Both the position numbers and the translations under genes were made by a program. From the NCBI GenBank assembly GCA_963920765.1, contig OY987242.1, forward strand, positions 29,474,002 through 29,538,001: 64,000 nucleotides of DNA, given 5' to 3'. Shown one piece after another: positions 12,709 through 59,529 of this stretch. Origin of the DNA: Ulota crispa. Lineage: Eukaryota > Streptophyta > Bryopsida > Orthotrichales > Orthotrichaceae. The notes under the pieces were generated by a model that saw only the letters and a list, made by a program, of their open reading frames with translations, was not told the DNA's origin and made no database searches. Every line of letters begins with the position of its first letter. Position 1 is the stretch's first letter.

Positions 12709-12758
12709 TAATGGACAGATACTAACAATGATATTTGATCGAAAAGTGTCCATATTAA

Positions 12759-13974
12759 CCCCTAAATGCTCAAGGCCATTTTTCTTAAAAAAAACACTCA
12801 AAAATGTCACTCATGTGAGACCATGAGAGAACACTTTTCTTTTTACTACAAATTTAACAGTAAAATCTTACATAAGACTTATGCAAGAAACCACAATAAG
12901 AATTTCATGAAGTTTGACCATACGGATTGAGAGATATGATTATTTGAAGTTAGAATATATGGTTTTTTTAACCTCTAAACATGTCACCCATAAAAACTGA
13001 TTGTTTACATTCTAAAATAATTGTGATGTCTAACCACTCTCCATATCTGAGAGCCAAGGTTAACCCCTAAATGCCCAAGGCACCCAATTTGGGTTTCCAA
13101 AAAACTTTAGGAAACTTTGAAACCTTGTTGAAGGTATGGATTTTATCATTTCTAGGTTTTTTTTCTTGGAAAAGTTGCGCGCTAAAGTTAGCTTCAGTGT
13201 TCAAATTCAATTTCCTCCATATCTTATTCCACTTGTTTTTGGTGGAAGGTTAATTACAAGCATACATTTGGTGACATGAATAGTGTCGAGAATAGTGTCA
13301 TGAATAGTGTCACAGAACCTATGAGAAGTTGCCACATTGAAAAGATGGGCATCAAGTTGAGCAAAAGGTGAAGATTTCCTTTGGGCACTCCCTTGGGCAA
13401 TAAGGGCCTTTTTTCTGAAATTTTGACATCTAAATAACTCTAAAAGTGCTTTTGGACTAATTTCACTTGGAATTTCTTTGTTATAAAAATTAGAATCCTT
13501 TCACCGTTGAAAATTCTTTCATTCATAATGATTTTGGTCAATAATTGAAGTTGAAAATTTCTTTGTATTAGACAGTTGGGTTTTGACAATTGCATTGCAA
13601 GCTCATTTGTGAAATTGTGGTCATGGATTTGGAAGGGGGGCTGTTGGTATTGAAGTAACAACAATAAATACTAAAGCATCCTAAATGATTTTTTTCCAAT
13701 TTTGTATCCAAAAGTTACCAATTTGCATTAGAAGTTTCGGGTAGCTCCAAAATAAGCAAAAAATTCCATACTCACCATCATTCAATCACAAATATCTTAA
13801 AATCCGAGCGGTCATTTTGGATTCTTTTTGGGTAGCTCCATCTAGAAGCCTTGAAGTTCAAGATTCAACAGTTACAATTTTATTTTGATGTTTAACAATG
13901 ATCTTACAAGGACAATTCAAAAACTTGAAAACTGCCTTCCAAAAACAAGAAAAACACCCTTGAGCATTTAGGGG
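12759..13974. mobile_element. TTAA-flanked piggyBac-like non-autonomous element
   Basis: Both ends carry the 17-base inverted repeat CCCCTAAATGCTCAAGG, bordered by TTAA at 12755-12758 and 13975-13978. A second left-type end (TTAA then CCCCTAAATGCCCAAGG) lies inside at 13060-13080, so this is probably two elements, one nested in or abutting the other. No transposase is encoded. Confidence 0.75.
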
Positions 13975-13978
13975 TTAA

Positions 13979-15237
13979 AATAACACTCCAATCGCACTAG
14001 GGACTATGAACTCAAATAGAACCAATTTATTAAAAAACAATTTTTGTTCGTTTCCTAAATAATCACATTATAAACTTTGGTGAGAATTCTTACACTAAAG
14101 CAAGAAAATTTGGAATATTAGTTCCTTCAGTTAGCAAGGAAATCTTGACCCTTCAAAATATCTGATTAGGGTTTTTGTTTAAATCTTTTTTTAAACTTAT
14201 AATAACATTTTGTATAGAATGCTGGACAATAAAAAAGTTGTAATGGAGTGGTTAAATTTCTTTTTAATAGTTATTAATCAATATGATATATCTACATATT
14301 GAATGAATACACCATATGTACCTTTAGGACAAATAATAGATGTTCAATTTACATTCAAAATCTTTCACCCACATTCCATGAATGTTGATAGATTTGTCAT
14401 TTCAAATGAAAATTGTAACTAGCATTGCCAAATTCTTTTGAAACAAAGTTGTTATACTATTTTGTAATTTTGTTTGAAAAAAGAGTAAAGTCCCTTCAAT
14501 ATATAAAGGCAAAATAGGTTAAAAATTGGGGAAGGTATACCAATATCCAAGAAACATATGAGACAAGTCTATAGTGAAGGAGCATTGTCACAAAGTGCAA
14601 ATGATTCTTCTTTAGTGATTCTTTTCTTCAATGTCTGAGCATGACAACGCTATTTGGTGAGCACAAAACGGTGAGCCATGAGCAAGGATCCAAGATTTCA
14701 TGAGCAAAAACAAATTCTCAACTCAAAAATAATGGAATAACTAAAATAATAACAATTGTTTCAAGAGACGATAATTTAAATAACACAATTATGGGGCCCT
14801 CTATACACACGGTTGTAGATGGGAAAATTTATTTTGACAAAAAAATCCCAGCTCACAACTCATGGCTCACGGATCCCACTTGGAAAATCCAAGAACAACA
14901 ATTACTCAAAAACAACAAACAATTTTATACTGCAAAATTTGATTGTTATTTTTGAGTTTTACAATTCCAGACCAGCATGGAAGTTTGCCCCTTCATGAAT
15001 GAATGAAGCACCTTTTTTTTTGCATAAATCCGAAAGACAAGCTCTTCCTGTTGTTGAATAATGATGACATGGTGAGCTCAAGATAAGGATCTTCGATTCC
15101 TTTTTTCTGATTTGATTCAAAGGCTTGTTGAGACCAGCTCCTCAAGAACGTCATGAAGTCATATGTACATATTTCACATTCCCTTTCAAAACTTAGCTAA
15201 CTCCGGCTCCATTTTCACATTTTTCCCGACATCTGGA
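13979..15237. other. Intergenic, nothing recognised
   Basis: AT-rich sequence between a TTAA element and the 3' end of the F-box gene. It presumably includes that gene's 3' untranslated region. No open frame, RNA gene or repeat end is supported. Confidence 0.5.
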
Positions 15238-17047
15238 CTAGAAGCTAAAACAGGAGAAATCCAAACTCCTAGTCCAGCGCCGTGGTTTGAAGGCAAAATC
15301 TTGGTCCAAGTGTGAAACAATCTCGCCCACTTTAGACACAATGGTTTCATAACTAATCGGACTACTGGTATGAACACAAATCTCCAGAGAAGCCAGGCTT
15401 GGTTTCAGCAAGATACCCAAAGTGGTAAGACAGGAGTCAAGATTTTGAGGTATCATGTGGAGTATGAGGCGCTTGAAGGGAGGCCATTTCTCCACTTTGG
15501 ACAGCTGATCCACATTCATTTCCATGGAGTGCCAGAGTCCAGGCCCAACATTCAGAACGGCAAGTCTTTGACACAGCAGGAGTTTGTCGAAGCAAGGAAG
15601 GTTGAACGGGATGCCCTTGAGAACACCCAACCATTGTCCCTCTTCCCCTAACGCCATGCATGGTATATCCAAGAACAATTTCTCCAGATTGACATTGGCA
15701 GTAACAAGGCTCGAGAGTATGTCAAAACTCGAAGTCCCGTACAGTAACTCCTGCAAATTGAGAAGATCCTTCAAGTCCACCTTCCACGACTCTCGAACTT
15801 CGAGATTGAAAGCCATGAATTTCAAACCAGTGGCACTGATGGTGAGGCTCTCGGGACACAGCATCTTCAGCTGCAACTTTTCAAGGTTCGGCAGTTGAAT
15901 GCTCACGTCCTTGGCCATCGTTGACAGACCGAGACATAGAACCTTCATGTATGGGAAGTCCAAACAGCCATGGGTTACTCCAAACACTCCCAGCAGAACC
16001 AACGTCGTTAAGTTTCTCATGAACTTATTGACGAGTTGTAACGTGTCACCTGTCACTTTCACACACCGCATTGTGAAACTCCTCATCGTCGGCATGGCCT
16101 CCAACTCAGCCGAGTCGATAAACATGTTCCGCAAATCCATGCTCTTCAGTAATTTGCCTATCAACAACAAAAATAATAGGCGACATCACTCTACCACGGA
16201 CACCACGAGTACTAACTGTTCATCGAATATATTGTTCAGCTATTTTCCACGACCTGGGGTTCGTCAATTCAATACTAACACGACCGTGGCCTTGACCGAG
16301 GCATCCATCAGGAACAAGCATAAAGTTTATAGGGTCTAATGTACTGTACAATACTGTACTGAGGAGCGGCACGGCGAAATTTAGTAAGAACTGGACGTGG
16401 TTGAAGTGCCGGTAGTGTCCAAACTTACAGTTCTGAGATAATATTTTGAGGATGCTCGTTCTGCGCATGATAGCCTGCTGTCCATAATCCACAATACACA
16501 AGTGCTGGAGAGTCGCTCGGACAGAAGGTATCCATCTAATCACATGAAACGGGTCGCTGAGCCAAAAATCTGTTCTTCTTCGCTCTCCTTCGGGAACAGT
16601 CTTTGACTGCAGCTTTGCCTCAATCTCTATCCTGATCTGCAGAAGCAAAGGCTTTCCCTTCAGGAAATCAACCACCACTTCCCTGAATATGAAGAGGCTT
16701 TTCTCATCACCAGAAGAGCCTTGGTCGTCGTCGTCACTGCTGGAAGCGGACGCCTGTTGCCCATGTGCAGCAACGGACGTGCTGGCTTCACCTATTGAAT
16801 TCGAGAGCGTCGTTCCAGCTCTTACAGCCTCATGGTACTTGTTTGGACAAATCAACCGCACTGAACGAATCCGACTCCCAGCTTCCTTGAAACTTTTGCA
16901 CACGCAAACAGCACTTGCGATGTGGCTTGCATTCTCAATTGCAAGTCTGTTAAATATATCTTCGAGTATGTTTTGAGGCAGCGCTAACACCTTGGACGCC
17001 GAGGTGCCTCGAAACTGCATCTGATTTTCGAGAACATTTAAATCCAT
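15238..17047 (-). CDS. F-box protein with degenerate leucine-rich repeats
   Basis: F-box proteins are substrate receptors of SCF (SKP1-Cullin-F-box) E3 ubiquitin ligases. Two exons, 17047-16429 and 16157-15238, join through a 271 bp intron (donor GTAAGT, acceptor ttgatag) at codon phase 1 to give 512 residues. The F-box lies at about residues 21-58 (LALPQNILEDIFNRL, then CVCKSFKEAG). It is followed by a Ser/Asp-rich low-complexity stretch (SSSDDDDQGSSGDE). The second exon is rich in Leu at LRR-like spacing (LVLLGVFGV, LCLGLSTM, LEKLQLKML, LQELLYG, LEKLFLDIP), as in plant F-box/LRR proteins. The start is the first ATG, and the reading frame is clean throughout. The substrate cannot be inferred. 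Confidence 0.88.
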
Positions 17048-17478
17048 TTCTACAATACAAGCTTTTAATCGACTGGAGCATTTCTGTACAGAAGAAACCG
17101 TTCACAAAAAACCACAAACTCACAAGTTTGGGAAATGCATCACCACCGTGGATTCACTGAACCTGTTGCTCTCAAAAGAGGGCAGGAGGCTCAGCACCTA
17201 AGAATTATGCATTCACTTCACCTATAACTGATGAGAGATCAGCTCATGACGTCTGAATTTTGTACATTCCACTCACGTGCTTGACACTAAGGCCATCACA
17301 TGTGACATAATCGTCGCCACGCAGCAGAGGTCACGATATTCTGAAATTGACCTGATTCACAGCCTATTAACACGAACGTTAAGTTGGTGAGATTTTTCTC
17401 ATCATGGTGGCCTCACGGTAGCCTTTCTGATGAGTGATGTTGATCTTTGGTGTGAATGGGCTATGAAACAAAAGTCCA

Positions 17479-19768: not shown

Positions 19769-21283
19769 ATAGTGCCAGTTAATCACAAGTCAAGGAACTC
19801 CCTAAAGCAATAAAGTAATCTATGATGATAAGAAAATGTAGCTTTAAGAGGGTTTAGAGACTCCTTCAAATAGGGCTTATTTGAAGGGGGAAAGTAAATG
19901 TAAAGGTTGACACACGCTATAACTGGTTGCTTTCATCCGGAAATGATAGGGGCCTAGACATTTGGAGGGTTGCAAAAGATGCTCTTACTACACTTTCTAC
20001 AAACTATATTTTCTCTTGGGATTAGCAAGTTGTCCTAACTTACTTATTGCTTTTGGAAGTTCCTTGACTTGTGATTGGTTGGCAACACATTTAGTGAGTT
20101 GCAATGTTAGGGATACAAGTGGCCATTCCCTTTTAAATGGAAAGATTTCTATTGAAGTGACCTCCGTAATTGGAGGGTTGCAAGAGATGCTCTCAAATAA
20201 GCCATATTTGAAGGGGTCACTAAACCCTATTACAAGCTATAATATTTTCTCTTGGGATTAGCAAGTTGTCAAAACTTACTTATTGCTTTTGGAAGTTCCA
20301 TGACTTGTGATTGGTTGGAAGTATATATAGTGAGTTATACTGTTGGAGATACAAGTGGCCATCCCCTCTTAAATGGAAATTTCAATTGAAGGGTGCTTTG
20401 TAATTGGAGGGTGGCTTGAGATACGTACTCTAACATGATATAAAATATTCTCTACTATTGAGCATTGGGGTGTCAAGCATGAGGCATCTGTTAGTCACCC
20501 AAATTTGAAATTCAAAAAAGAGGGAGAGGAAAAGGTAGGGAAAAGGAGGATGAAATATCATTAGAAATTTGAAGGGGAGGGAGGAAAAAGGGCAAGGAAG
20601 GGGCGGGTGAAAATATACCTCAAAAATCATTCTAAATGAAGAGAAACATGGTGCAAAAAAATGCAAGACATACTCATAAGACATTAACTGTGAAATGTGA
20701 AAATTGGAATTAGATTATACTTCACTTATGATGAAACATGTGTACATAAATAAAGTCTAGGACACTTCAATCTATGCATTGGGCTTCACTAGGTCCCTAT
20801 GTCCCCTTCAACTCCTACTCTATTTTTACTACAAATTTAGTGCAAACCCTCCCAAATCTTAGGGTCCCAGGAAAGAAGAAGTGGGGTTTTTGGTAAATTT
20901 GTTCATACTAATCAAACAAACCAACAACTCTCAACTCTCAAGAAGACCCTGGTTTTTTCCTTGCAAGGGATTTTTTCAAATCCTAGGGTCCAATGGTTTT
21001 GGGAAATACATGACACTAGTGTTCACAACTTAGTTCCAAATAAAGGAGTAATGGGGTTATCAAAGCAAGGCATTTTTTAACCCTTGAATGCTGGGAAGAC
21101 CCTTTATGGCCGTATCTCTCATTTTTCTTGTATTTGAGTGGGTTCTCGATGGAATTAGGGGTGACAATGTAATTGACTTAAGTGTGGGCTCCTAAGTCGC
21201 CTTCAACGTGACATCTAGCAACCCAAATTATACAATACAATGCTTGAAAATTGGTAGAGCACAGGGAATACTATATAGGCTAG
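19769..21283. repeat. Gene-free stretch with a tandem duplication
   Basis: Between 19964 and about 20405 a unit of 208-234 bp occurs twice head to tail, with a third start at 20406. Each unit opens with ggagggttgcaa and contains tctcttgggattagcaagtt and gaagttcc(t/a)tgacttgtgat. The rest is AT-rich. A TTAA followed by CCCTTGAATGCTGGG at 21077-21095 looks like an orphan left end of the TTAA element family. Confidence 0.6.
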
Positions 21284-22168
21284 TGTATAGTACCCAAAAG
21301 AAAGAGTACATAACACCCTTTTATGGCATCCAAAGAAGTATGTATAACAAAGAATACAACTGACATTTCATTCTCACATTTTTAATATGCGATCCTCGTG
21401 CAATCTTAATAAAGCATATCAAATTTCAGTTACTAAAACCCAAAATCTTATTTTTGATAAATGGTTTTGTGTCAAAATCATGGTTTTACAAGAAAGTTGT
21501 TCAATAAATAGTGGTGATGAATTTTTGGGATTTGATTGCATAGATATGTAAGAGACATCCATACGCACATCTTCCTTTCAAACAAACATTTCCAAAAAAA
21601 TATTTATTTTCCCTCTATAGAGATTTTAATGTTAGAGTGATTATGACCAAATTTAGTAAAATACATATTTCTTCATGGAAATTAGTTCTTGCTATTTGAC
21701 TCATACATTGTGATTAGGTTTGTACCTTTAAACATGATGATATGTTTCTTTTGCCAAAAACTAGTTTCCATGAAGAAATATGTATTTTACTGAATTTGGT
21801 CATAATCACTCTAACATTAAAATCTCTATAGAGGGAAAATAAATATTTTTTTGGAAATGTTTGTTTGAAAGGAAGATGTGCGTATGGATGTCTCTTACAT
21901 ATCTATGCAATCAAATCCCAAAAATTCATCACCACTATTTATTGAACAACTTTCTTGTAAAACCATGATTTTGACACAAAACCATTTATCAAAAATAAGA
22001 TTTTGGGTTTTAGTAACTGAAATTTGATATGCTTCATCAAGATTGCATGAGGATCGCATATTAAAAATGTGAGAATGAAATGTCAGTTGTATTCTTTGTT
22101 ATACATACTTCTTTGGATGCCATAAAAGGGTGTTATGTACTCTTTCTTTTTAGTACTATATAGTATGT
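21284..22168. repeat. Long foldback family B, copy 1
   Basis: Arms of about 405 bp (21284-21690 and 21761-22168) are near-identical inverted copies around a 70 bp spacer. The arms share phrases with the foldback at 39445-40328, for example atggttttacaagaaa, gatttgattgcat/gatttgatagcat, and the spacer phrase catacattgtgat. This shows one family with a conserved layout. There is no coding capacity, and the superfamily is not identified. Confidence 0.8.
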
Positions 22169-24266
22169 ATGGGGGGAGCCCGGCCCACCCTCCCAATTGC
22201 ATCTTGCTGATTTTCAATCCACACCGTATTGGTGAGATACGGTCCCGTATACCAGAGGCTCGGAGGCCCAATAGGCGTTCAAGGATTAAACTCACCCAAA
22301 TCAAGGATCTTACCACTTGCCTTTTTTTCCTTTTCTTTTTTATCTAAGCATAAGTACAAGTTTACAATTATTTGTTCACTGAGACTGAAAATATATAAAG
22401 CTAGTAAATGTTTTAAAAAATTTGACAAAAATCATAGATAGCCAGGGCAGTATATGACACCATAAATGCACTCAAAGAACTCATTTCTTTATCTCATAAC
22501 TTGAGAGGAATATTTGTATTGCAAATATGTATATCTCAAGATATAACTATAATAATAATTGCATGTTTCCAAGATAATCTCTTTCACCTCATTCAATTTT
22601 ATCAAAAGTTCAAAGAATGGCCAATGTCAAGTGGCTAACAGAATTTTGGATCAAGTATGCTCACAAACCTACACTAGACCTTTTATCATTGTTAAAGTTT
22701 TCAATTCTCTTGGTGATTTCTTATCAAGAACTCCGGTTCTCCTGAGTTTACTGTCAATTTCTGAAGGCAAAACTGCCAGGGAAAATTTAGACCCCCTACT
22801 GAATAAGAATAAATTTCAACAAACTCGTACTTTTGGCATTCGGTATGTGTTTTGTAGCAGATACCAAATACAATTACATTTTCATAATGCCCTAAATTCC
22901 TATACATTTTTAGACAATTTACATTATTGTAGAGGACACATGGCAATAGCTGACAAGAGCTTAACAATATTTTTAATCCTCTAGTATCTGTAGGGGTTGA
23001 TATGGCCATTGAATCACAGTGTTAATTCCTGATTAATTATCCTTCTCAAATTTTCCCTCTTCTACATAAACTTGCCACAACAAACAGTGAAACTCCAAAA
23101 TTGGAAATAGCGTACACACTTCAAATTACAAAAAGAATATTTTGGACTCACCTCAATGATATATGTATATCAGTCAGTCAGAAGTGCACGCAAATCACGA
23201 GATTTTGAAGTAGCTGCAAGAAGACAAAGAAGTCCAAGTTGGAGCCTTCATGTTTTTGTACTACTTTTGAAGATTTTCTATAGCGATTATGGTACGTCCA
23301 ATTACCATGCAATGTTTCTTGGTTATAAAAAAAAAAAAAGTCACAATTAATTCTGCTCTCTACGGTGTAACAATTTTAAAAAATGGTCAGTTTAAAACAG
23401 CGGATCGTTCATGGCTTCGTCCATAAAGAGTCAGATCTTGTAAAAAAAAAAAACCCCTGTGGGGAAAAAATCGGGTGCGTCCCGAGATGTCGGTCATTGT
23501 ATGATCATAATAATATGGAATACATGAAAAAATCCCTCAATAGGGGAAAAATCTAGAAACCCAATGGGGGAAGAAAATCGGATGACTCAACTAGAACTCA
23601 TATATAGTCCTAAGGAGGTACCACGTAACACGGTGGTACATAGCGCTAGCTAATGCTACTGCCGTCGCGAGTGCAGCATAGAGGTGGGGTAGTGAGCCAA
23701 TGATTCAGGAAGGAAGATTTAAGAGCTTCGTTTTCTCTACAGTGCTGGTGAATGGAACGCTAAGGGGCGAGTCCTATATGTATGGTGCTTGTTCATGCTC
23801 GCTTCATGACGCAGTCGAGTGCTGGTGTTTTGTTGCTAAACCACCAAGAGTCAGATCTTATAATCCACAGCCTATTTTGTGGAAGGTGCTTCTAATCGAC
23901 ACTAGTTGCACTCTCTGCACAGTCTCTTCTAGTAAGGACCAATTGAAGCCACAAATCCAAGCTTCTATATTTGCACCGCACCGTGTGACCATTAGTGGTT
24001 CTACGTTTGATCATTCCAACATTCAAGAAGTCGCTTACTGATCCAAATAAGAGCCACAGGCCACAGCCTCTTTCATTGAAGCACTGCTCCTGTGCTCCAC
24101 AAGACCGCCATTCCACCATGCACAAACTTTCAAACCACCACAAAAAATAGAGCTCTATTTCTCTTAGACTCTTCAAGTCCACCTTCTGGTTCAAACCGTT
24201 AACATTTGTAAGGACGATGAAAAATAGCTTCCGGAATAGAAATGACTCAGTTTGCTAAAACAAATA
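22169..24266. other. Intergenic, diverse repeat-like remnants
   Basis: No gene is supported. The phrase gagtcagatctt occurs twice (about 23428 and 23848). A GC-richer stretch at 23600-24190 carries a minus-strand open frame (24194-23892) beginning near VDLKSLREIELY; this faintly echoes the VDLKDLLNLQELL segment of the F-box gene and could be a paralogue scrap. That is a weak resemblance. Confidence 0.4.
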
Positions 24267-26313: not shown

Positions 26314-26819
26314 CTGCAACAGGCAATGAAAACGTGCATTAAGGTTAAGGTAAACAATTACATTCAAGTGATGGAAACAACAACAAATAGTTGCCGCTGT
26401 AGGAGTGGCATTAAATAATAACACCATATTCGTTAATATGGAAAAAAAGCAGGTACCATTTTGTACTCCACCTTAAACCCAAAAAGTTACCTTAAACCAG
26501 ATTCTAAGGTATCAGATTCAGTTTGAGCCACTAAGATTTTTTCCCTCGCAAATTCCTCCTCTCAAGTGAGGACACATGTACAAAAAAACGTTGCGAGCTA
26601 GGTTTTATGAGACCTCTTAAAACTTTCACCTCAAAATTTGAAAGTCCCAAAATGTACCATTTTTCCTAAATTAACCAATATGGTGTTAAATAGATTTCTT
26701 ATAGCTATATGCTAAACCATGAGTGGTATGTTTAATGAAACCCTAAAAAGACATCACACCAAGAATGTCAGCTCATAATGCAACAAAGTAGCCAATCCTC
26801 TTCCCAAAAAGTAGGTTAA

Positions 26820-27458
26820 CCCCTCAACGCCCGAGGGGCGTTTATTTCGCCCCTTTGAATTTTCTTCAAGGATACCGAAAGTTTTTTGAAGATTTTTTAT
26901 GTGGTTATTATTATATCTAAATTGTTGTTGAAGTCTAGTTTTAGCATCAAGAGTCTAATCTTGAAAATGAATTAACATGATTTGTCTATTCAAGATTTTG
27001 TGCAAGGGTGTCTATTGCAAATCTTCACTTTCTAGTGTTGAAGGCTCTTGGAAATGAACCTCAAGTACACTAGAACTTGGAGAAAAAATTGCATTAAAAA
27101 TTCATTTAAAAAAATTGTAGAACAGATTTTGAGAAGCTGTAAATTGATTGGGATTATGCATGTTGTACTTTACAAACTCATATTTTTTTTGGTACCCTCA
27201 ATTTCAGGTTTGAGATGCAAAACAGGATTGAAAGACTTCAAATCACTTTCATAGTTTTAACACCCTCATGATTAAACATTATAATATTTCAATCCATAAG
27301 TGATATAGTTGTGATTTTTTATTGTATGCAATCTATAACATGTGTACTTTGAATTTGTACAGTTACATTTCAAAAAAATTGATTGATCAAAATACCAGCA
27401 GTTTGTTCACTTTCAAGCAAATTCTGAGATACTCCAAAATTCCACGGGCGGTGAGGGG
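26820..27458. mobile_element. TTAA-flanked piggyBac-like element
   Basis: 639 bp, with TTAA at 26816-26819 and 27459-27462. Inverted ends CCCCTCAACGCCCG and, reversed, CCCCTCACCGCCCG (13 of 14). Non-coding and AT-rich inside. Confidence 0.78.
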
Positions 27459-27462
27459 TTAA

Positions 27463-39224: not shown

Positions 39225-39444
39225 TTAAACATAACATTTTTATAAGAATTTGAGGGAAAATATTGAATATAGGCTTGAAAAATGGTTGGATATCAAAAAT
39301 AGGTTTGGTCTTTAAGGAATATCAAAAGTAGACCTTGCAACTATGGTGTTCAAAACATTGGGCATGTCTAAAATTTCCAAATTAAATTGGTTTGTGATAG
39401 CTTTGTTTACAGTGACCATTCTGACCAAGACCACAACATCAATT

Positions 39445-41041: not shown

Positions 41042-41277
41042 CCCATGAGCGCCCAGCCCAAATTTGTGCTGTGCTGGTCCTCAACAATTTGGTACTAAAA
41101 TTTAAAAAATAACATTTGAAAGAATTAGCCATTCATATTGCACAAGGTTTAGGATCCGCAGATGTATGAAAATTTTGATAAATTTTCATTACACAAATCA
41201 AAAGATTAAAACGATCAAAGACAATAAACTATTAAATATGGAGAGGCTAGATTTGGGACGGCTAGGGCGCTTAAGGG
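41042..41277. mobile_element. Short TTAA-flanked piggyBac-like element
   Basis: 236 bp, with TTAA at 41038-41041 and 41278-41281. Inverted ends CCCATGAGCGCCCAGCC and, reversed, CCCTTAAGCGCCCTAGCC, matching apart from one gap and two substitutions. Non-coding. Confidence 0.75.
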
Positions 41278-41768
41278 TTAACTCTTCACATACAATATTC
41301 ATTCCCTCTAAGATTGGATTTTTGGAATTATAGTAGATTAAAAAATACATAAAAATTCTGTGATCTCTTCTAAAAAATCAAATAGTATACATCAATATGA
41401 CTCGAGTTTATTGATGGCACCTATTGCGACTGTTTTATTTGTGATTCATAGATTTTTGAATTTTGAGGAATATGGTAGTCCTCGAATCGGAGGAGTTGAC
41501 CCCCGAGAGTGGAGGATGGTGGGTAGCATATACTAATAAAATAACGACTTCTAAAATTTGATTATCAGTGCTTAGAATAATCATCAAATGACTTAATTTC
41601 AGTCATTGGGACATTTACAATTGTTGTGTATTGATTGTTTAGAGCCTGTTTTTCTATTAGTGCATGTAATTTTTGAAATTTTGAAATTTAAAAATTTATG
41701 GCCTTAGAAAAAAAATCGAAATAAAATCTTCACTTAAAAAAAAAATTTCCCATCTCAACATGGATCAA

Positions 41769-42950: not shown

Positions 42951-44211
42951 GATATCTCAAAATAGGGGGTTTCAGATATTTCAAAATAGGGGTTTCAGAT
43001 ATCTCAAAATAGGGGGTTTCAGATGTCTCAAAATAGGGGGTTTTAGATATCTCAAAATAGGGGGTTTCAGATATCTCAAAATAGGGGGTTTCAGATATCT
43101 CAAAATAGGGGGTTTCAGATATTTCAAAATAGGGGTTTCAGATATCTCAAAATAGGGGGTTTCAGATATTTCAAAATAGGGGTTTCAGATATCTCAAAAT
43201 AGGGGGTTTCAGATGTCTCAAAATAGGGGGTTTTAGATATCTCAAAATAGGGGGTTTCAGATATCTCAAAATAGGGGGTTTCAGATATCTCAAAATAGGG
43301 GGTTTCAGATATCTCAAAATAGGGGGTTTCAGATATCTCAAAATAGGGGGTTTCAGATATCTCAAAATAGGGGGTTTCAGATATCTCAAAATAGGGGGTT
43401 TCAGATATCTCAAAATAGGGGGTTTCAGATATCTCAAAATAGGGGGTTTCAGATATCTCAAAATAGGGGGTTTCAGATATCTCAAAATAGGGGGTTTCAG
43501 ATATCTCAAAATAGGGGGTTTCAGATATCTCAAAATAGGGGGTTTCAGATATCTCAAAATAGGGGGTTTCAGATATCTCAAAATAGGGGGTTTCAGATAT
43601 CTCAAAATAGGGGGTTTCAGATATCTCAAAATAGGGGGTTTCAGATATCTCAAAATAGGGGGTTTCAGATATCTCAAAATAGGGGGTTTCAGATATCTCA
43701 AAATAGGGGGTTTCAGATATCTCAAAATAGGGGGTTTCAGATATCTCAAAATAGGGGGTTTCAGATATCTCAAAATAGGGGGTTTCAGATGTCTCAAAAT
43801 AGGGGGTTTCAGATGTCTCAAAATAGGGGGTTTCAGATGTCTCAAAATAGGGGGTTTCAGATGTCTCAAAATAGGGGGTTTCAGATATCTCAAAATAGGG
43901 GGTTTCAGATATCTCAAAATAGGGGGTTTCAGATATCTCAAAATAGGGGGTTTCAGATATCTCAAAATAGGGGGTTTCAGATATCTCAAAATAGGGGGTT
44001 TCAGATATCTCAAAATAGGGGGTTTCAGATATCTCAAAATAGGGGGTTTCAGATATCTCAAAATAGGGGGTTTCAGATATCTCAAAATAGGGGGTTTCAG
44101 ATATCTCAAAATAGGGGGTTTCAGATATCTCAAAATAGGGGGTTTCAGATATCTCAAAATAGGGGGTTTTAGATATCTCAAAATAGGAGGTTTCATATAT
44201 CTCAAAAAAAG
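42951..44211. repeat. 24-bp satellite, about 52 units
   Basis: A near-perfect tandem array of the 24-base unit atatctcaaaatagggggtt + tcag. Most units are identical. Variants include a 23-base form (tttcaaaatagggg, one G fewer), a gatgtctc form in a block of four at 43789-43870, and a ggttttag form. The 23-base forms recur at a spacing of 190 bp (42973 and 43163), showing a small higher-order duplication at the left end. Because 24 is divisible by three, the array is open in frame as an eight-residue repeat (FEISETPY on the minus strand); nothing suggests it is translated. Homogeneity implies recent expansion or conversion. Confidence 0.97.
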
Positions 44212-45396: not shown

Positions 45397-45400
45397 TTAA

Positions 45401-47152
45401 CCCCTAAAAGACTTGAGCCATTTTGAAATGGTCAAACTTCATGTCTAAGTTAAATTTTTCCTTTTAAAGTGTGTTCAACCAAAAAATTTATATTTTTATT
45501 GCTTGAAACTATGCATGATATATCACTGCAAGAAATTTCAATTTGTTTCATGAAAAATTGTAATTTTTATATATATTTTTCAAAAATGAACATAAAAAAG
45601 TTAAAATAGCAAAAAAATCCAAATTATTTGAATTTTGTTCAAGAGGTACAAGCAGCATTAGTGTGAAAAAATTTCAATTGGTTATTTAGTTTTATACACC
45701 CAAAAAAGTAACAACAAAGAATTTAAACTCAAATTTGACTATGAAACTAAGTTTATCCTTATATGTAATTAATGTATATATTTTTTATATTTTTTTGCTA
45801 GAATACACATTCATTTTTTGTATATGTTTTTTTTAATGAATTTGGTGGAAACTTTTAATTATTGTGATTTTTTAAATCTAAATGTGGAAATAAAATCATA
45901 TCAATTAGAATATATATTTAAAAAATTGTAACTTCTACCATAACATAATGGTAGAATGAGAAACATGGTTTTTTAGTTTAAATTTAAAAGCCATTTAAAG
46001 AGTAAAAATTATAAATGAAAAACACACCATATTAGGTTATTTGGATTCTAACACTTGGAGCTTTCAATGGCAATAACTCTTTCAATTTTTGACATTTTTT
46101 TAAAAATAAAATGGAAAAGAGAGAAAACTTGTCAAGCTTTGTTTTCTTAGTTCAAACCACATACCAAAAATTGATATTTTGAAAGTTACAATAAAAGCTG
46201 ACCAAAGGGCATCCACTTTTTTTGATGCACAAACCTTAACCCCTAAAATTCTTTTGTGTTTAGAGGCCCAAAATTGCTTCAAAATACTAATCCCAAAAAC
46301 AAGGTTAAAATCTTCATTGAAACTTACTTTTTCACAAATCCAACTGTAGGATCCTTTAGTTGACTTGCACAAGTACATTGTCCCAAAATTTCAAAATGAA
46401 CATCCCCACCAATGGCAAGATCAATGTGCCTAAACTTCAAAATGTAGGCTTTTCTGGTCCTTCTAGAAGGTGAACTTTTGATTTTCAAACTTTGTAGAGA
46501 AAAACACATATGTTGTATTTCTTGTGCAATTTTTGCAGTATGTTGGAAAATGAGTTGAAAGCATATATAAAAAAAACTAACCAAAAGATACTTTGGATTT
46601 GTTTTTACAAAAATTGTAAAGTGAAAGGTATTGATGAATGAAAGATATAACTAATATGCTAATAAGTTTTGGAAGAATTTGAAAATTGTTAATCCCAATT
46701 GTGAGAATGCTCTAACAGACAATTAGTAACTTTAATTTTCATTTTCATTTGAAAATTTTCAAAATTGAGAGTAAAAGATAACTTTATATATTTTTTCTAC
46801 CCTCTTCCTACCTTCATTGCCCGCAAAAGAAAACTCCTTGTAACTCTTACCTCATTATTTGGAATTGAGTGATTCAATTTTTCTTAAGTAAGTATCATTC
46901 TATACAATTATATAAAAATAAAAATAAATATTTTAGAATATATTTTTTGTTGCCCGATTTGACATGGAAATTGAAAAAACCTTATAACTTTTGCATTACT
47001 TATTGGAATGACATGAAATAAAACTTCACATGTAGATTATGATGAGTAGCATCCATCCTAAAAATTTCATGAAAAATTTCCAAATTATGAAGTCAATAGA
47101 GCATGCCCAAGTTCTCATAAAGCCCTAAGTGGGCTTCTTGGGCCTTTAGGGG
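45401..47152. mobile_element. TTAA-flanked element(s), nested left ends
   Basis: The outer ends are TTAA plus CCCCTAAAAGACTTGAGCC at the left (45397) and, reversed, CCCCTAAAGGCCCAAGAAG at the right, closed by TTAA at 47153-47156. A second left-type end (TTAA at 46236 then CCCCTAAAATTCTTTTG) lies inside. So either 46240-47152 is an element inserted at the tail of another, or the left part is a truncated copy. No transposase frame is present. Confidence 0.65.
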
Positions 47153-47866
47153 TTAAAAAGTCAATGAAATTCTCACTTGTTTCAAAGTCAAAAGTCAAAA
47201 ATAAAGGAATATGCCTACCGTATTCTTGCAAGTCACAACATAGGGTCACCGAATAATCGAAATTGTGTATCCACATTGTAAATAATTCTACGTGTCCTCT
47301 GTCCGTACGACATGTGGCAGTCTGAAAATGAATGTGACTTGGCAGCTTTGCCACGTAGGGCCCTCCGGATTGGTACTCTATTCTGATTCTTCAGTAGGGA
47401 CTAGGGGTGCTGCAAACTGTAATTACTCAAATAACTGTCGGTGCCTGTTCATGCTGATTACTCAAACCTATCCTACCCACTCTACTCATGTAAATAAAGT
47501 AAATAGCCCTCAAAATGACTATGTCAGTCTATTAGATGTCACCTTGGATGTGCACCCAAAATCAAAATAATGGTACAAAGGTTTTATATGTTTGTAAATG
47601 TGTACGAGGTTAAGTGCAAGTGTTTGTGTAAGGTAGATGTCCCCAATCCCGATCATTAATGTACTCAGTCTGCAGTCTGTATATATCAAGTTTGAAATGT
47701 ATCCATTGGGAACAGATGGTCGGAATTGGGGACGGGCTGCTAAACGATTGGGAATGGGCACAATTAACTTAACTTTTGTGAGCATGATGAAATGATTTTG
47801 GATTTTTTATGCTCAATTTTAAGAAAGGCTATGAGTACAATCTAGGTGAATTCAAAATTATTTTAA

Positions 47867-49439
47867 CCCCTGAAGGACTATGGCCTTCATTTTGTCAAAA
47901 AACACTCAAAACTACCACTTCTATGGCAAAGAGTAGTAAAGTTTGAAATTAGGCATTTTGCATATCTGACTATAGGATCTTTTGCTAGACTACTATAAGA
48001 ATGTGTCATACAAAACTCAAGAACTTTGACTGCATAAATTGGAAGATATATGCATTTAAAGTGTAAAAAAAAACTTTTTTTGCACCTTGCTGACTAGATT
48101 ATTTAACTTTGAACATTTTTAACTTAACCCCTAAAGGCCCATTGTCCCTTCAAGGGACAAATGGAATTTTGGGCATGTACCTCTGGCTAAACTACTTTGC
48201 GTGATTTTCTGAATTTTTTATTGAAGGTGAGGAATTCAAAGATCTGCGTGGGAATAAAAAAAATCTTCATTATGACATTTACTAAAGAAATTAAAAATGA
48301 ATAACTCAAAAACAGGGGACTCCGGGCAGCCCAAAAACTTCTGCAAAAATTGCATTTTTTTCAAATAAAAATCTGAAATAGGTTCTTTAGACTTATATAG
48401 ACATGGGGAGGTTTGAATCATTCATTTTTGATAGATGAGATGAAAGTTATGAGAAGTTTTAGTTTGCGGGTAGGTGTGATTTCAAGACCACACCTACCCG
48501 CAAAATAAAACTTCTCATAACTTTCATCTCATCTATCAAAAATGAATGATTCAAACCTCCCCATGTCTATATAAGTCTAAAGAACCTATTTCAGATTTTT
48601 ATTTGAAAAAAATGCAATTTTTGCAGAAGTTTTTGGGCTGCCCGGAGTCCCCTATTTTTGAGTTATTCATTTTTAATTTCTTTAGTAAATGTCAGAATGA
48701 AGATTTTTTTTATTTCCACGTGGATCTTTGAATTCCTCACCTTCAATAAAAAATTAGAAAATCACGCAAAGTAGTTTAGCCATAGATACATGCCCAAAAT
48801 TGCATTTGTCCTCCAAAAGGGCTCTTGGTCCTTTAGGGGTTAAAATTTTTGCACCACAAAGTTTGGAATTCTATTTTTGCATGGTAGTAAGTTGAGTTGG
48901 GAATCTTGGGAAATTATTAAAAAAAAAAAAAACTTAATTTTCATTCTTTAAAAAAACATTAGGTACAAGAAGGTATGAGATTGAACAAAAACTTAAATTG
49001 CTAATAACATTGCAATGGAATTGAAATGCAATTATCCCAATGCTAAGATTGTTCTAGAAAGCAAACCTCACCCTCTCCAACAATTTGTTTTGAGTTGCTT
49101 GAAAAACAAGATTGTCCAAAACTTTCTCATAACTAGTCCAAATGGAATGAATCAAAGCTTCAGATGTAGATAAAGATATAGTCTATAAGAAAAAATAAAT
49201 ATATATTTTTTCAAATTTTTATAAGATTTTTTTTTGCTGCCCCTAGTCCCCAAATTTGTGCTTATTTGGGCATAACTTTTGCTCCCTGGCATCAATTGGA
49301 ATAAATTTGAGATTCCCTAAAAGCTAATGTGTTTTTCTATTTTCAAAAAAAGTTTCAAAAAATTAGGACAAAAATTGAGATTGTAGGTACCTACCCAAAA
49401 TCCCATTTGTCCCCTGAAGGGACAATGGTCCTTTAGGGA
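47867..49439. mobile_element. TTAA-flanked element with a second element nested inside
   Basis: Outer ends CCCCTGAAGGACTATGGCC and, reversed, TCCCTAAAGGACCATTGTCC, with TTAA at 47863-47866 and 49440-49443. The complete palindromic element at 48128-48839 sits inside. The outer right arm is homologous to the same element family (cccaaaatcccatttgtccc). Confidence 0.72.
48128..48839. mobile_element. Palindromic TTAA-flanked element
   Basis: 712 bp with TTAA at 48124-48127 and 48840-48843. The whole element is a near-perfect inverted repeat: arms of about 350 bp meet at 48472-48493 (ggtgtgatttcaagaccaca...). Ends read CCCCTAAAGGCCCATTGTCC and, reversed, CCCCTAAAGGACCAAGAGCC. It is related to 54197-54914 and to the right half of 41769-42719. 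Confidence 0.88.
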
Positions 49440-49486
49440 TTAACATGCACAAATAAAGGCAGCTATTGTATCAAAGAGTTTCTTAA

Positions 49487-50406
49487 CCCTTTAGTAACTA
49501 GTTCACCACTTTTGGGTTGGTTTCGGTACTCTGTGGTTCTTGTTGTCTTCGTTTAATTAATTAGCAAAAACACAAAACATAATGGAGTTGGAGCATCAAC
49601 TTGTACTCCTACTGGAACAATTTTCAAAGCAAGGCATACATAAACATGGTAGCTATGCGTGTTTTACATATGAAGCTGGGACTCTCGGGTATAACAAATG
49701 AAATATTAATTTAGTGCAACCGTGACGTGGCCCCAAATTTACACATTGCACCCAAAGTATCTGGTGCTAGTTCTCTAGCAGTTGTGCAAAAGATGCATGG
49801 TTTATTTAGAAGTTCTTTGTATAGCGTATTTTAGCTACAACATCACGTATTCCGTGAGGTCTTAGGCTCCAAAGGTTTGCAATGCTAAATGTGGGACCTT
49901 GTACCTCAAATGACACTCAATGTATATGATATTAACCAATCGGATTTTGTGGAAACATGTTCCATGCATGATGTATTCAACCGTATATGTGTGGCCATGT
50001 TTGTATTCTTCTAATGCTCAATTTTACAATTCATGCCGTCAAATGCACATATTGGCTCAAATTTTGTAATTTTTTTAGAAGTGTAGTAACATAGAATGGG
50101 GCAATAGCCTCTACAAATCCCACCACTATCAAAAGTTTCAGTTTCACAATTGACACTAATTAGTTAGAGTGTCTCACGTTTTTGCACAACAAATTTTTTT
50201 GGATCATCAAGCTTCTCACGGTCCTCACGTGGAGTTGTTCCAATAGATCAAACGTTTTTTTTATACTAATATCGCCAAAGTTTATAGCTTTGATAGGTCC
50301 GGTTCGATTTGATTTTAGAACCACATATTTTATCCTTGAATTTGTTTTGCAAACCATATAGTGAAAATTTGAGGTGCCCCCCAAATGGTTGACAGTCACT
50401 AAAGGG
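49487..50406. mobile_element. TTAA-flanked piggyBac-like element
   Basis: 920 bp with TTAA at 49483-49486 and 50407-50410. Inverted ends CCCTTTAGTAACTAGTTCAC and, reversed, CCCTTTAGTGACTGTCAACC. Non-coding. It lies only 40 bp beyond the preceding element. Confidence 0.78.
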
Positions 50407-50410
50407 TTAA

Positions 50411-51640: not shown

Positions 51641-51954
51641 ATACACTAAATATTGCGTTTAGGTTACCCACACTAATTTCTTGACATTTCACACCATTTA
51701 AATATTTACTGCTATTATAGTAATAATCATAAAAAATTATTGCAACAAACAGTTTTTAAGCCTTTAAGGTATGTGGTTGATTTGAGGGGTGGGCAAGAGG
51801 TTTTCCCATTCTTGTCATGACCCTTGATGGATGAATGGTTGATGAATGAATGGTTGATGGATGAAGGATTGGTGGATGAACGAATGCACAGTAAAATGTG
51901 AATTAGTGAACAATGAAAAAAGCCTTGAAGGCGGACATCTTTGGATGATGAATT

Positions 51955-52212
51955 TGTACATTTGGAGTTAGACAACTCCACTTGGATGACAACGGTACTA
52001 CACTTGAGGACAAAGGTACGGGATGTACCTTTGAGGACAAGTGTACGGAATGTACAACTTGAGGACAAAGGCATGGGATGTACCCTTGATGATAAGTGTA
52101 CGGAATGCACCTTTGAGGACAAGTGTACATGATGTACAACTTGAGGACAAAGGCATGGTATGTACACTTGATGACAAGACAAAGAATGGAACTTGGAGCT
52201 AGACAACTCCAA
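51955..52212. repeat. 27-28 bp minisatellite bounded by a repeated hairpin
   Basis: About seven imperfect units of roughly 27 bases (cttgaggacaaaggtacggg + atgtac type) run from about 51997 to 52180. On each side lies the same 20-base hairpin sequence, ttggagttagacaactccac at 51957 and ttggagctagacaactccaa at 52191. The open frames across it are a consequence of the repeat. Confidence 0.75.
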
Positions 52213-53279
52213 GTAAAAGATGAGATTTGATATGAGTTATATTTAGAATATTTCTAAATGTAACTAAGACTTTTACCTTAGCAAAGAGTTGGAGATGAAT
52301 GTTAAAGATAGAAAGATAAAAATAGTTAAAGTAATCCTATTTTTATGGAAGGGTTGATAGTATAAGATGGAGCTCGGAGGGTGAGGAGATTAATTCTTGT
52401 TGGGAATTAATCTCTCTCTATGGTCGGGAGGTTAAGCTCCTTCTAGTTTTTATAGTTTATTGTGTATAGATTATTGTTTTATATGCGTGTTTGGATGATT
52501 GAAGTTACGGACCTGATGAGGTTTGTACTAGTTCTAAACTCAATATAGAAGAGAAATATATACCTAACTTTGATTTGTAATGAAATATAACCGTACCATT
52601 GGAATGGGATTTGATGCTTGGACCCTCACAATAAATTTGGTGGCAACGAGGGTGGCAATTGAGGGTTCCTTTGTTGCAAGTAATAATAGATCTCTTAGTC
52701 CGTATATGGTGAAGTGAGCATGCATACAACAAGCTACCTTTGCCATCATATTTCTTTTTTGTTCTTATAGGGCCAAGTTTCTCATTTTTTACCATCAAGA
52801 ACCATATGGAACTCCAACATGGCTTTTTCCAAATTTGTGTAAGTCAGTATGAATGCTGAGTCTCTTTTGCATTTAGAGTAGTCTTTCTCCAGTGATTTAT
52901 GTATTTTCAGCCTGCATGTAGGCAAATTTTTCAATCCCACATGCTGGCACAAATCTTCATGGAATTTGTCCCATTACATTCATTTCCAAATTCCTCACAC
53001 TTGTCTCCTTTCATCCACAACCAATTTCATTGTCAAACTTTGGCTACCAATGATAATGTGTCTAAATCAATCAGAAAGTGGTTGATGAGACCTTAAAGGG
53101 TTAAAGGACCTGTCAATAACAATGAAGCTGCTAAAAGACAAAATAGCCGTTCTCAAGTCATAAAGCATGTGAAATCCAAGTATTTAGAGCCTTGTACAAT
53201 ATGTGCTTCCAAGTGGCCAAAGGATGAGTCATGAGGTAATTTACCAGAGTAAGGCAACCTACTTGTCAAGGCAACCTAC
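52213..53279. other. Intergenic, nothing firm
   Basis: AT-rich. An orphan right-type TTAA end (CCTTAAAGGGTTAA) lies at about 53089-53102. A short plus-strand frame at 52899-53096 is not recognisable as a protein. Confidence 0.4.
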
Positions 53280-54192: not shown

Positions 54193-54196
54193 TTAA

Positions 54197-54914
54197 CCCC
54201 TAAAGGACCAAAGTCCCCTCAAGGGACTTTCAGGGTTTTGGGCATGTATTTATGGCTAAACTACTTTGTGTACTTTTTTGAACTTTTATGGAAGATGGAG
54301 AATTCAAGGATTTGTGTGGGCATCTAATTTTTACCTCATTCCAACATTTATTGAAGAAGTTAAAAATGAATTTATGAGAATTTTAGTTCAGCGGGCAACC
54401 CAAAAACTTTTTAAAAATTTGCATTTAAAAAAAATAAAAATTCAATGTTAGTTCTTTAGACTTACATATATGTGGGAAGCTTTTAATCATTCAATTCTAA
54501 TTGATGAGATGAAAGTTATGAGAAGATTTAGTTTGCAGGTAAATGTGGAGAATCTCAAAATAATGCCTACACGCAAACTAAAACTTCTCATAACTTTCAT
54601 CTCATCAATTAGAATTGAATGATTAAAAGCTTTCCACATATACGTAAGTCTAAAGAACTAACATTGAGTTTTTATTTTTTTTAAATGCAAATTTTTAAAA
54701 AGTTTTTGGGTTGCCCGCTGAACTAAAATTCTCATAAATTCATTTTTAACTTCTTCAATAAATGTCGGAATGAGGTAAAAATTAGATGCCCACACAGATT
54801 TTTGAATTCCCCATCTCCCATAAAAGTTTCAAAAAATCACACAAAGTAGTTTAGCCATAGGTATGTGCCCAAAATCCCATTTGTCCCCTAAAAGGGGGCT
54901 TGGTCCTTTAGGAG
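54197..54914. mobile_element. Palindromic TTAA-flanked element, second copy
   Basis: 718 bp; the left flank is TTAA at 54193-54196 and the right flank is TTAG at 54915-54918, one change from TTAA. The arms invert around about 54550-54560. Arms match those of 48128-48839 (gggcatgta, ctaaactactttgtg, gatgagatgaaagttatgag). Confidence 0.85.
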
Positions 54915-54918
54915 TTAG

Positions 54919-57514: not shown

Positions 57515-57930
57515 AGGTTGTCCACAGTCGCCGAGTCAGAGTAAGAGCTTTACGTTGTTGGAACTTGGTACAACTGTACAAGTTCTAAATTATACACAGG
57601 TTTCCAGTCCGTACTAACCCCAGTTTGAGAGGTTTGTACAGTACCAGTTACTAAAGACAATCAACAAGTTATTTATTCATCTTTAAATTCACTTTTTTAT
57701 CTTTGTGAGTTTGCATTCAAGCATGTGCAAGTTAAGAATAATACAATGTTATATATTACAAGTAAAATAAATTGGCAAGAAAGCAATCCTCACCATTAGC
57801 TTAGATGTGCAATTCACCTAACTAAGCATTCATGTTCGTTTTTTCTTATGCTTAATATTTTTCACAATTTTCACAAGAGCGAAAGACTTCCTCCTTAACC
57901 CTTAACCCCTTAGAGACTGCCGAACCATCC
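57515..57930. other. Intergenic, nothing recognised
   Basis: AT-rich stretch ending in a duplicated left element end: ttaaccccttagagactgcc occurs at 57902 and again at 57931. Confidence 0.5.
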
Positions 57931-57934
57931 TTAA

Positions 57935-58844
57935 CCCCTTAGAGACTGCCGAACCATATTTTGGTTTGGGAGAGTAGTTTTGGCCTATGCAATACAATTG
58001 CTCAATAATTTGGAAAATGATTTTGAAGAACGCTTGTGATCACAAGAATTTTGCATTCAACCCAAAAAACAATAATAGAATTGAATACGGGAGTTGATAA
58101 ATAATGGTGTTTATACGTCATGGCTTCAAAATACATGTTCATATTTGGTCAAAGATGGATCAAAGCAACAACACAATACATCAAACATCCAGGAAGAATA
58201 CCAAATCTCAATTGTGCAATCTTAAAAAAAATCAAATTACTCAAAGAATACGCTTGTATTGTTTCTCTATACAATAGTAGTACAATTGTACTATTTGAGA
58301 ATCCATTGAAGTGATGCTATTAATTTATTTATTAAAAAAATCATCTTACATTTAAGGCCAATTCTTGATTGCTTTTATCAATTGGATTTTCCGTAACAAT
58401 TATCAAATTTTTTGTAGAATCATTTTAGGATAGCATAGAGAATGGGATTTTTGACCCTTTTTGTTTAGTTAGCCACACATTGTGATTGCTATTTTTGTCT
58501 ATTTTGAGTGAAACTAGTCTTGTTGGAAAGGTGGGAAACCTTGCTTTTTAGAAATGTAGTGTGGTTTTGAATGTTAACGCTTCTTGCATGAAGCGTTAAC
58601 ATTCAAAACCACACAAGCATGAAAAACTAGAGATTTTCCATATACGGCTCACTCACTCATTATAATATTTCACCTCCAACAGTAAATCTAGTTGAAATTT
58701 TGATAAATTACAACAAACAAGGTGTCCACATTTGTATACGGTTGGATTATTCAAATTGGGTCCATAATTGTTTCAAATGTACATCTAATTTTATTGCCCC
58801 GGTTTCTAGTGGATTTTGGGAAAATGTGAGTGGTCTTTAAAGGG
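57935..58844. mobile_element. TTAA-flanked element with duplicated left end
   Basis: TTAA at 57931-57934 and 58845-58848. The left end CCCCTTAGAGACTGCCGAAC is present twice (also at 57906, 29 bp upstream, with its own TTAA). The right end, reversed, reads CCCTTTAAAGACCACTCAC. Inside, a perfect short hairpin (gaagcgttaacattcaaaac with its inverse) lies at 58565-58610. Confidence 0.6.
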
Positions 58845-58848
58845 TTAA

Positions 58849-59067
58849 AGGACCATAGGGCATAGTATATATGTTGTCATATAATCGGTATTTGCTACCA
58901 GTAAGAAGTTTTAGTTTGGGATCTCAAGTAGCTCACTAGAACTGCTTTGATCTATTCTCCAACTTCTTTGTTGATCTCAAATGCAGTAAAGGTTTGAATC
59001 TATTTCAAATACAAAAAAAATGCCTTGTATTCTATTGGTCGCAGCGGCACGCTGTGTCCTCTAGGGA
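58849..59067. mobile_element. Short TTAA element, copy 1 of 3 in series
   Basis: About 219 bp between TTAA sites at 58845 and 59068. It is homologous throughout to the next copy (tttgggatctcaagtagctc, actagaac(t/c)gc(t/a)ttgatcta). Its left end starts at AGGACCATAGGG and lacks the CCC(T), as if the junction with the preceding element overlaps. Confidence 0.65.
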
Positions 59068-59071
59068 TTAA

Positions 59072-59297
59072 CCCTTAAACGATCATAGGGAACCGTATGT
59101 ACGTTGACGTATAATTGTCATTTGCTATCGACAAGAAATTTGAATTTGGGATCTCAAGTAGCTCACTAGAACCGCATTGATCTATTCTCCAATTTCATTG
59201 TTGATCTCAAATGTAGTAGAGGTGTGGATCCATTCCAAACACAAGAAAAATATCCCATATTGTACTAGTCGCAAAGGGCCTTTCGGTCGTTTAAGGG
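59072..59297. mobile_element. Short TTAA element, copy 2 of 3 in series
   Basis: 226 bp, with TTAA at 59068-59071 and 59298-59301. Ends CCCTTAAACGATCATAGGG and, reversed, CCCTTAAACGACCGAAAGG. It shares both TTAA sites with its neighbours. Confidence 0.8.
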
Positions 59298-59301
59298 TTA
59301 A

Positions 59302-59525
59302 CCCCTGAAGGGTCCTTGGGCTTTGGAGCTACGGTACCAAATACAGTCGCAACCAATATTCAGAAGTTTGAATTAGCTAGAAATCAAGTTTTATAACCAT
59401 ACATATTGAAGGGTTGTATGGTGGTGGGTGCATAATTTTTTTTGGAAAGCTCTCATAGCAGGTCAAATACGTCTGTACATACGGCCATACATATGGTCGC
59501 AAACGGCTTTTGTGACGTTCAAGGG
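59302..59525. mobile_element. Short TTAA element, copy 3 of 3 in series
   Basis: 224 bp, with TTAA at 59298-59301 and 59526-59529. Ends CCCCTGAAGGGTCCTTGGG and, reversed, CCCTTGAACGTCACAAAAG. The interior differs from copies 1 and 2 but keeps the same size and contains tacggccatacatatggtcg. Confidence 0.7.
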
Positions 59526-59529
59526 TTAA

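Follow-up and report, generated by a model that had tools for sequence, protein, structure and literature searches.

Miniature elements with piggyBac-type termini in the genome of a probable moss: target site, transposase partners and asymmetry of the ends

Background

Do short intervals that are bounded by TTAA and begin with CCC at both ends represent a radiation of piggyBac-type miniature inverted-repeat transposable elements (MITEs) in a plant genome, and if so, which enzymes would have moved them? The question is raised by a 64 kb stretch of DNA (C1:29474002-29538001, hereafter the window) in an assembly of 274.8 Mb and 157 contigs, the host of which is most likely a moss. An earlier description made from the letters of the window alone (the sequence-only reading) had listed a dozen TTAA-bounded intervals with ends starting CCC(C/T)T and had assigned them to the piggyBac superfamily from these ends. 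Termini of this superfamily start with CCY or CCC, and its transposase cuts at CCC ends, with hairpins formed over TTAA, and then inserts the element at a new TTAA, which is duplicated. We find that the intervals are, with high probability, non-autonomous piggyBac-superfamily elements, comprising MITEs and short deletion derivatives, which several related transposases encoded elsewhere in the genome would have mobilised in trans. Their membership of the superfamily is near certain, being as firm as sequence allows.

Results and discussion

Termini in the window and in the genome

The outer flanks read TTAA at 23 of the 24 ends of the 12 listed intervals, the exception being the right flank of 54197-54914 (CTAA), and 11 of the 12 have TTAA on both sides. 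The start CCC(C/T)T is found at 20 of the 24 ends; the remaining four are the right ends of the intervals at 38873 (CTCTT), 47867 (TCCCT) and 54197 (CTCCT) and the left end of that at 41042 (CCCAT). The list of a dozen such intervals therefore stands nearly as given. In the first of them (12759-13974) the right boundary is sound and the left one is misplaced, as the true start is the TTAA at 13060 and not at 12755. With TTAA fixed and up to two mismatches to the motif TTAACCCYTNAANGNCC allowed, the window holds 14 forward and 12 reverse ends, of which 20 pairs face inward at distances of 100-2000 bp (including nested pairs and alternative ones), as against a mean of 0.6 ends, a maximum of three and zero pairs in 100 dinucleotide shuffles of the window. 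This shuffle test is not independent because the motif was partly drawn from the window ends.

The whole-genome count of the motif, unlike the shuffle, is an independent test. Exact TTAACCCYTNAANGNCC occurs 24,790 times, equally on the two strands (12,388 and 12,402), as against 2 (1 and 1) for the reversed pattern used as control, and the copies for which the sequence-only reading had suggested searching the rest of the genome are thus present. Allowing up to two mismatches anywhere, the counts rise to 91,378 (45,566 and 45,812) for the motif and 4,442 (2,218 and 2,224) for the control, which upon subtraction leaves about 87,000 ends or about 43,000 element-equivalents. Thirteen elements of the window occupy 9,757 bp, or 15.2% of it. 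Since the window holds 26 ends (under a slightly stricter rule) where 64 kb at the genome mean would be expected to hold 21, we guess that piggyBac elements make up about one-tenth of the genome, which is not a measured share. The window elements have the features of MITEs in their sizes (232-1,760 bp), high copy number and ends in common with transposase-bearing elements. Several families are present in the genome, and their ends correspond to those of transposase elements of five or more types. A genome-wide excess of left ends was considered and rejected, as matches to the left-end block (5,673; control 0) are not in clear excess over those to the right-end block (5,059; control 3).

Transposase-bearing elements with matching ends

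The piggyBac transposase domain (PF13843, DDE_Tnp_1_7) has 120 matches in the genome, all of them over the cut-off, of which 10 are free of stop codons in the matched stretch. Because most copies (110 of 120) carry stop codons, the radiation looks largely past, judging from the sequences. The same domain has no match in any of 14 control genomes, which is uninformative on plants, the sole named control being a cyanobacterium. The larger piece of the transposase at locus L012 matches piggyBat (1.7e-16) and Trichoplusia ni (T. ni) piggyBac (3e-13), and its C-terminal piece matches both weakly (2.5e-4 and 9.1e-4, respectively). Regular expressions applied to the unbroken pieces of 30 loci found the three Asp motifs, taken in order, in 15, 19 and 16 loci, all of them together in six (L011, L012, L019, L025, L034 and L037), and, with a loose pattern, the C-terminal Cys residues in 19.

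Extension of the flanks of 14 transposase loci served to locate their terminal ends. Elements E009 and E018 are 90.5% alike, with homology spanning 5.03 kb from terminal TTAA to terminal TTAA. E012 (5.7 kb) carries CCCCTAAATGCC at both ends, as does E022, and paired ends of the motif type are also found in E014 (5.1 kb) and E010 (6.0 kb). E025, E026, E034 and E038 have TTAACCCCTAAA-type right ends at which their mutual homology stops, and E025, E026 and E038 can also be aligned at their left ends, starting at the TTAA, which delimits TTAA elements of 8.8, 8.5 and 8.3 kb, respectively, with nested insertions. Thus, paired motif-type ends flank the transposase in E012, E022, E014, E010, E025, E026 and E038, and the autonomous-type partner that the sequence-only reading had proposed to look for exists as elements carrying a PF13843 transposase within TTAA-CCCYT termini. 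A separate transposase subfamily is seen at L060:3650-5341, where two matched pieces lack stops and are separated by an apparent intron-like gap; paired TTAACCC ends were not found there within 8 kb. The possibility that E060 is a single-copy domesticated gene was rejected, as relatives of about 70% identity occur elsewhere (50 candidates).

One element of the window can be traced directly to such a partner. The element at 13060-13977 (forward strand; 918 bp from TTAA to TTAA) matches both ends of E012 and the ends of E022, its segments 13057-13174 and 13427-13979 being 77% and 85% identical to E012 and 68% and 77% identical to E022. It is made up of the joined left (about 310 bp) and right (585 bp) portions of an E012/E022-type element and lacks the transposase region. 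On this two-part alignment, it is a direct descendant of a transposase-bearing element by internal deletion. The TTAACCC end upstream of it, at 12755-12811 on the reverse strand, is a stray end that resembles E025/E038-type right ends (81% over 58 bp to that of E038).

Empty sites and the TTAA target

The nested palindromic element at 48124-48843 (720 bp) provides the clearest view of an insertion site. When its flanks were joined and compared with the genome, the junction was spanned by all 40 scored matches (the best 40 of 2,399 candidates), 36 of which cover the full 204 bases. In the 10 empty sites that were read, the junction is ungapped and has TTAA in eight and TTAT in two; a more distant relative, at L006, has TTTA. 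Each of these relatives is in turn an element of about 930 bp with TTAACCC boundaries and, therefore, the palindromic element was inserted into another member of the group, which in the window is the outer TTAA-bounded element at 47863-49443 (about 865 bp without the nested one, inserted at 48124). The joined flanks of candidate pairs were also compared with 287 kb of sequence, giving six spanning matches: the one at L006, two for the candidate element at 51756-53104, two between elements that lie in tandem (59068-59529) and, for L005, a weak match (72%). The two relatives of the 51756-53104 flanks (window 53564-53379, 75%; L005, 76%) each hold one TTAA. The other window elements found no empty site in this 287 kb comparison. 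As uninterrupted relatives hold a single TTAA, it is the target, duplicated on insertion, and is not borne by the element, in keeping with the sequence-only reading. Its superfamily call is also borne out, by the PF13843 elements with matching termini, the deletion derivative in the window and the single TTAA at empty sites.

Palindromic families with unlike tips

Two window elements, that at 48124-48843 and one of 726 bp at 54193-54918 (flanks TTAA and CTAA), are 94% and 89% self-complementary, respectively, and about 75% alike. First-look searches gave 7,557 and 6,703 candidates for the two families, and the best 40 were scored in each. All 40 scored copies of 54193-54918 match on both strands, and the 40 scored places of 48124-48843 give 80 matches. 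In each palindrome, both arms can be matched to 179-213 bp of the E025 left end (78-86%), and the right end of E025 aligns poorly with them past about the first 17 bp. It is thus the left end of a transposase-bearing element that gave rise to the arms of these two abundant families of near-perfect palindromes of about 720 bp.

The tips of the palindromes depart from this symmetry. In nine of nine full copies, the arm-to-arm identity is 53-76% over bp 14-30 as against 90-97% over bp 46-350, and 19 of the 20 copies read have two unlike tips, one of the TTGTCCC/AAAGTCCC kind and the other of the AAG..CCC..TTTT kind, the copies of one palindromic family being not independent of each other. The view that these are pure left-left palindromes was rejected once the two tips were read as different; that the second tip is a transplanted right end was scored and not established.

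A dyad centred at bp 25

The tip that resembles the left end of E025 carries a short dyad, and similar dyads recur at a fixed distance from other ends. When 132 ends were grouped into 68 clusters (75% over bp 1-45), 11 were found to contain a dyad of at least six of seven complementary pairs with bp 25 as its exact centre, as against a background, at centres beyond bp 34, of 0.5% of the clusters on average and 4.4% at worst. Even at the worst rate, the binomial probability of 11 in 68 is 1.8e-4, to be read knowing that some dyads were noticed by eye before counting and that L007 and window 53104, which make up two of the 11 clusters, are possibly spurious or poorly preserved ends. The sequences of the dyads vary (for example, GGGGCG..CGCCCC, AACCA..TGGTT and GACCA..TGGTC) and it is therefore the symmetry that is kept, not the letters. 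In the E025-type left end (28 members) the dyad is at bp 24 (TTGTCCC..GGGACAA), and in the 54197 family both halves have changed together, to AAAGTCCC..GGGACTTT. No favoured dyad position was found at bp 28-89 in 50 clusters that lack the dyad.

At the level of elements, with a looser threshold of five of seven pairs (chance 5.3% per end), 16 of 29 elements have the dyad on one end and one on both, which alone does not prove one-sidedness as it is not clearly different from independence. Among nine transposase elements, the dyad is on the left end in four and on the right end in none. In T. ni piggyBac, the C-terminal domains bind as a pair, and at just one of the two ends, to a palindrome that lies within bp 17-33 and has its minor-groove centre at about bp 25 (PMC7351741). 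Lying at bp 24-25 of one end, the dyad is likely to be the docking site of a dimer of C-terminal domains, presumably the paired zinc domains, and the moss ends look, by this comparison, to be built to the plan of T. ni piggyBac and piggyBat. Movement would need two unlike ends, and such a need would explain why palindromes built from left-end arms bear two different tips. We consider it plausible, and rather to be favoured, that the unlike tips are kept by a need for asymmetric ends.

Alternative explanations

Could the TTAA flanks arise in another way? PIF/Harbinger elements produce Tourist MITEs, which are abundant in plants and duplicate three bases, TAA or TTA (PMC10004981), so that their sites might mimic TTAA; however, a 3-bp duplication does not give the palindromic TTAA on both sides that is seen at all but one of the 24 ends, and it is PF13843 rather than a Harbinger transposase that lies between these ends (no search was aimed at Harbinger), making this origin exceedingly improbable. 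Tc1/mariner-like elements that duplicate TA and prefer TTAA are harder to tell apart at the target, since TTAA contains TA and a single-TTAA empty site cannot separate a 2-bp from a 4-bp duplication, but the enzyme between such ends is again a piggyBac transposase (a mariner transposase was not searched for) and we regard them as very improbable sources. That TTAA belongs to the element itself would account for its presence at nearly every copy; it is hard to reconcile, though, with empty sites that already read TTAA (eight of 10; TTAT in two), with two more TTAA sites for 51756-53104 and with adjacent elements that use one common TTAA (59298-59301), and is likewise highly improbable.

The case of the palindromes is less readily decided, as their unlike tips could have been inherited from an accident in a founder and need not be upheld by any need for asymmetry. 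Copies of a family share descent, so that 19 of 20 is not 19 events, and the two families, being about 75% alike, may have a common founder. On the other hand, two families have kept their tips distinct, with the rest of the arms still 90-97% alike within copies, the dyad of the 54197 family changed on both halves together (TTGTCCC..GGGACAA as against AAAGTCCC..GGGACTTT), and the native T. ni transposase mobilises LE35/RE63 but not LE35/LE35, the need for two unlike ends being called enigmatic (PMC7351741). We hold a founder accident to be possible, if somewhat doubtful.

Several observations weigh against mobilisation in trans by transposases with asymmetric docking. The comparison is one of sequences and not of observed movement, and most window elements are tied to a transposase through the type of their ends alone, a weaker bond than the descent shown for 13060-13977. 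Among the 14 loci that were extended, E020 and E060 gave no paired ends, E034 and E058 gave the right end alone and the pair of E059 is uncertain; the left flank of E018 is TTCA and the right flank of E022 is TCAA. The weak relative (72%) of the L005 insertion site lacks TTAA. The dyad is missing from both ends of 12 of the 29 elements. As 18 of 58 ends are positive, about 12 one-sided and three two-sided elements are expected under independence, as against the 16 and one found; in the uncertain E059 pair, each end carries a dyad. One palindrome copy (L087/L088) has two like tips, both of the AAG..CCC..TTTT kind, and, when scored as right ends, the right-end tips of the palindromes gave no clear result.

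Comparison with known systems

The moss elements resemble T. ni piggyBac (PDB identifiers 6x67 and 6x68) in the TTAA target, CCC-type ends, PF13843-type transposase, Cys-rich C-terminus and, in part of them, a left-end palindrome near bp 25, and differ from it in the sequences of the ends and dyads and in their thousands of miniature copies. The right end of T. ni piggyBac also holds a palindrome, which is displaced (PMC11707139), whereas no fixed second position was found in moss right ends. PiggyBat of Myotis lucifugus (PDB identifier 9c0f), the closest solved transposase to that of L012, has palindromes for the C-terminal domain in its left end and none in its right end (PMC11707139), which parallels the dyads of the four moss transposase elements with a left-end dyad; its left end, however, has three motif-palindrome repeats (PMC11707139), and its host and scale differ. 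The coral CMITEs are also MITEs related to piggyBac-like transposons; they occur in tandem arrays and include a family that descends from such a transposon, but they have a conserved internal region of unknown origin (PMC2872659), as against the left-end palindromes in the moss, with their differing tips, and its ends in the tens of thousands.

The presence of piggyBac in plants is not new, as it has been named among the MITE superfamilies of angiosperms (PMC10004981) and has been reported in all taxonomic groups studied (PMC4438587). In plant repeat tables it appears in traces, with 1,230 copies (0.00%) in C-fern and one copy in Stipa (PMC6890710, PMC8319324), as against 91,378 motif ends and demonstrated transposase partners here. 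DNA transposons make up 23.68% of the genome of the moss Pohlia nutans (PMC9247546), and a text search of that source found zero mentions of piggyBac. A paper on the moss Niphotrichum was rejected as a piggyBac record, since both text matches were the word "piggybacking". Among the literature matches listed, with subscription papers and repeat databases outside the search, there is no report of piggyBac elements in mosses, nor of the scale, the demonstrated partners and the architecture of the ends described here. The sequence-only reading had regarded a plant MITE radiation of this type as noteworthy; this holds for its unusual scale and not for the angiosperm setting, the host being most likely a moss and piggyBac being already listed for plants.

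Other elements and features of the window

Several of the remaining elements can be placed by their ends. The TTAA-bounded element at 26816-27462 (647 bp) has E009/E014-type ends and a left-end dyad centred on bp 25, that at 41038-41281 (244 bp) has E010-type ends, and those at 49483-50410 (928 bp) and 57931-58848 (918 bp) have E058-type ends, the latter with a left-end dyad at bp 25 and an 86% copy upstream of the E058 transposase. The end CCCCTTAGAGACTGCCG occurs twice in 57902-57947, 29 bp apart and with TTAA before each. The element at 45397-47156 (1,760 bp) has a dyad centred on bp 25 of its right end, and that at 38869-39228 (360 bp) is TTAA-flanked with degraded ends. Two small TTAA-flanked elements, 59068-59301 (234 bp) and 59298-59529 (232 bp), have the TTAA at 59298-59301 in common and lie in a short tandem array (58968-59529), in which 58968-59071 is 86% like 59198-59301 and neighbours use common TTAA sites. 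Two candidates are added: 21077-22289 (1,213 bp, TTAA-bounded), which was absent from the earlier list, has both ends within two mismatches of the motif and holds an 865-bp palindrome that matches the E026 locus, and 51756-53104 (1,349 bp) has a poor left end, its ends differing from the motif by three mismatches and one, and the two empty-site relatives described above.

Large palindromic repeats without TTAACCC ends at 36102-36535, 39557-40217 and 10526-11372 are probably MITEs of another kind; relatives of the first are present in the flanks of several transposase loci. A tandem array at 42951-44207 (24-bp unit, 52.5 copies, 97% matches) gives rise to long spurious open frames on both strands. 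Searches of the window with Rfam at gathering scores, for tRNAs and, on eight of its reading frames, with Pfam had no matches; among the open frames without a Pfam match is that at 6787-7455 on the minus strand, which we take to be plant alpha-amylase-like. Elsewhere in the assembly, contig C157 carries uninterrupted psaA and psaB genes. Among PDB entries these are closest to chains of 8htu, 6l35 and 7ksq with 7kux and 7xqp, structures of photosystem I from the moss Physcomitrium patens, on which the assignment of the host to plants, and most likely to mosses, is based. Of 48 PsaA/PsaB matches, 46 are fragmentary and on other contigs, where they are probably plastid DNA transferred to the nucleus.

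Conclusions

Taken together, the observations can be joined into a single picture: a moss lineage with possibly the largest piggyBac radiation among plants, covering some one-tenth of the genome, in which palindromes built from left ends are held to one dyad-bearing and one dyad-free tip by an asymmetric dimer-docking rule common to moss, moth and bat. We put this forward tentatively, as its conjunction of parts falls a little short of being evenly balanced. PiggyBac is a workhorse of genome engineering. With about 43,000 element-equivalents in many end families, filtered by past mobility, the rules for its ends may be readable from sequence, including the position of the dyad, its permitted variation and whether both ends may carry it. 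If the picture is true, this genome would be a natural saturation experiment for the asymmetric docking rule. A superfamily recorded at trace level in two vascular-plant tables can thus abound in a land plant, and the repeat libraries of bryophytes deserve to be checked for it.

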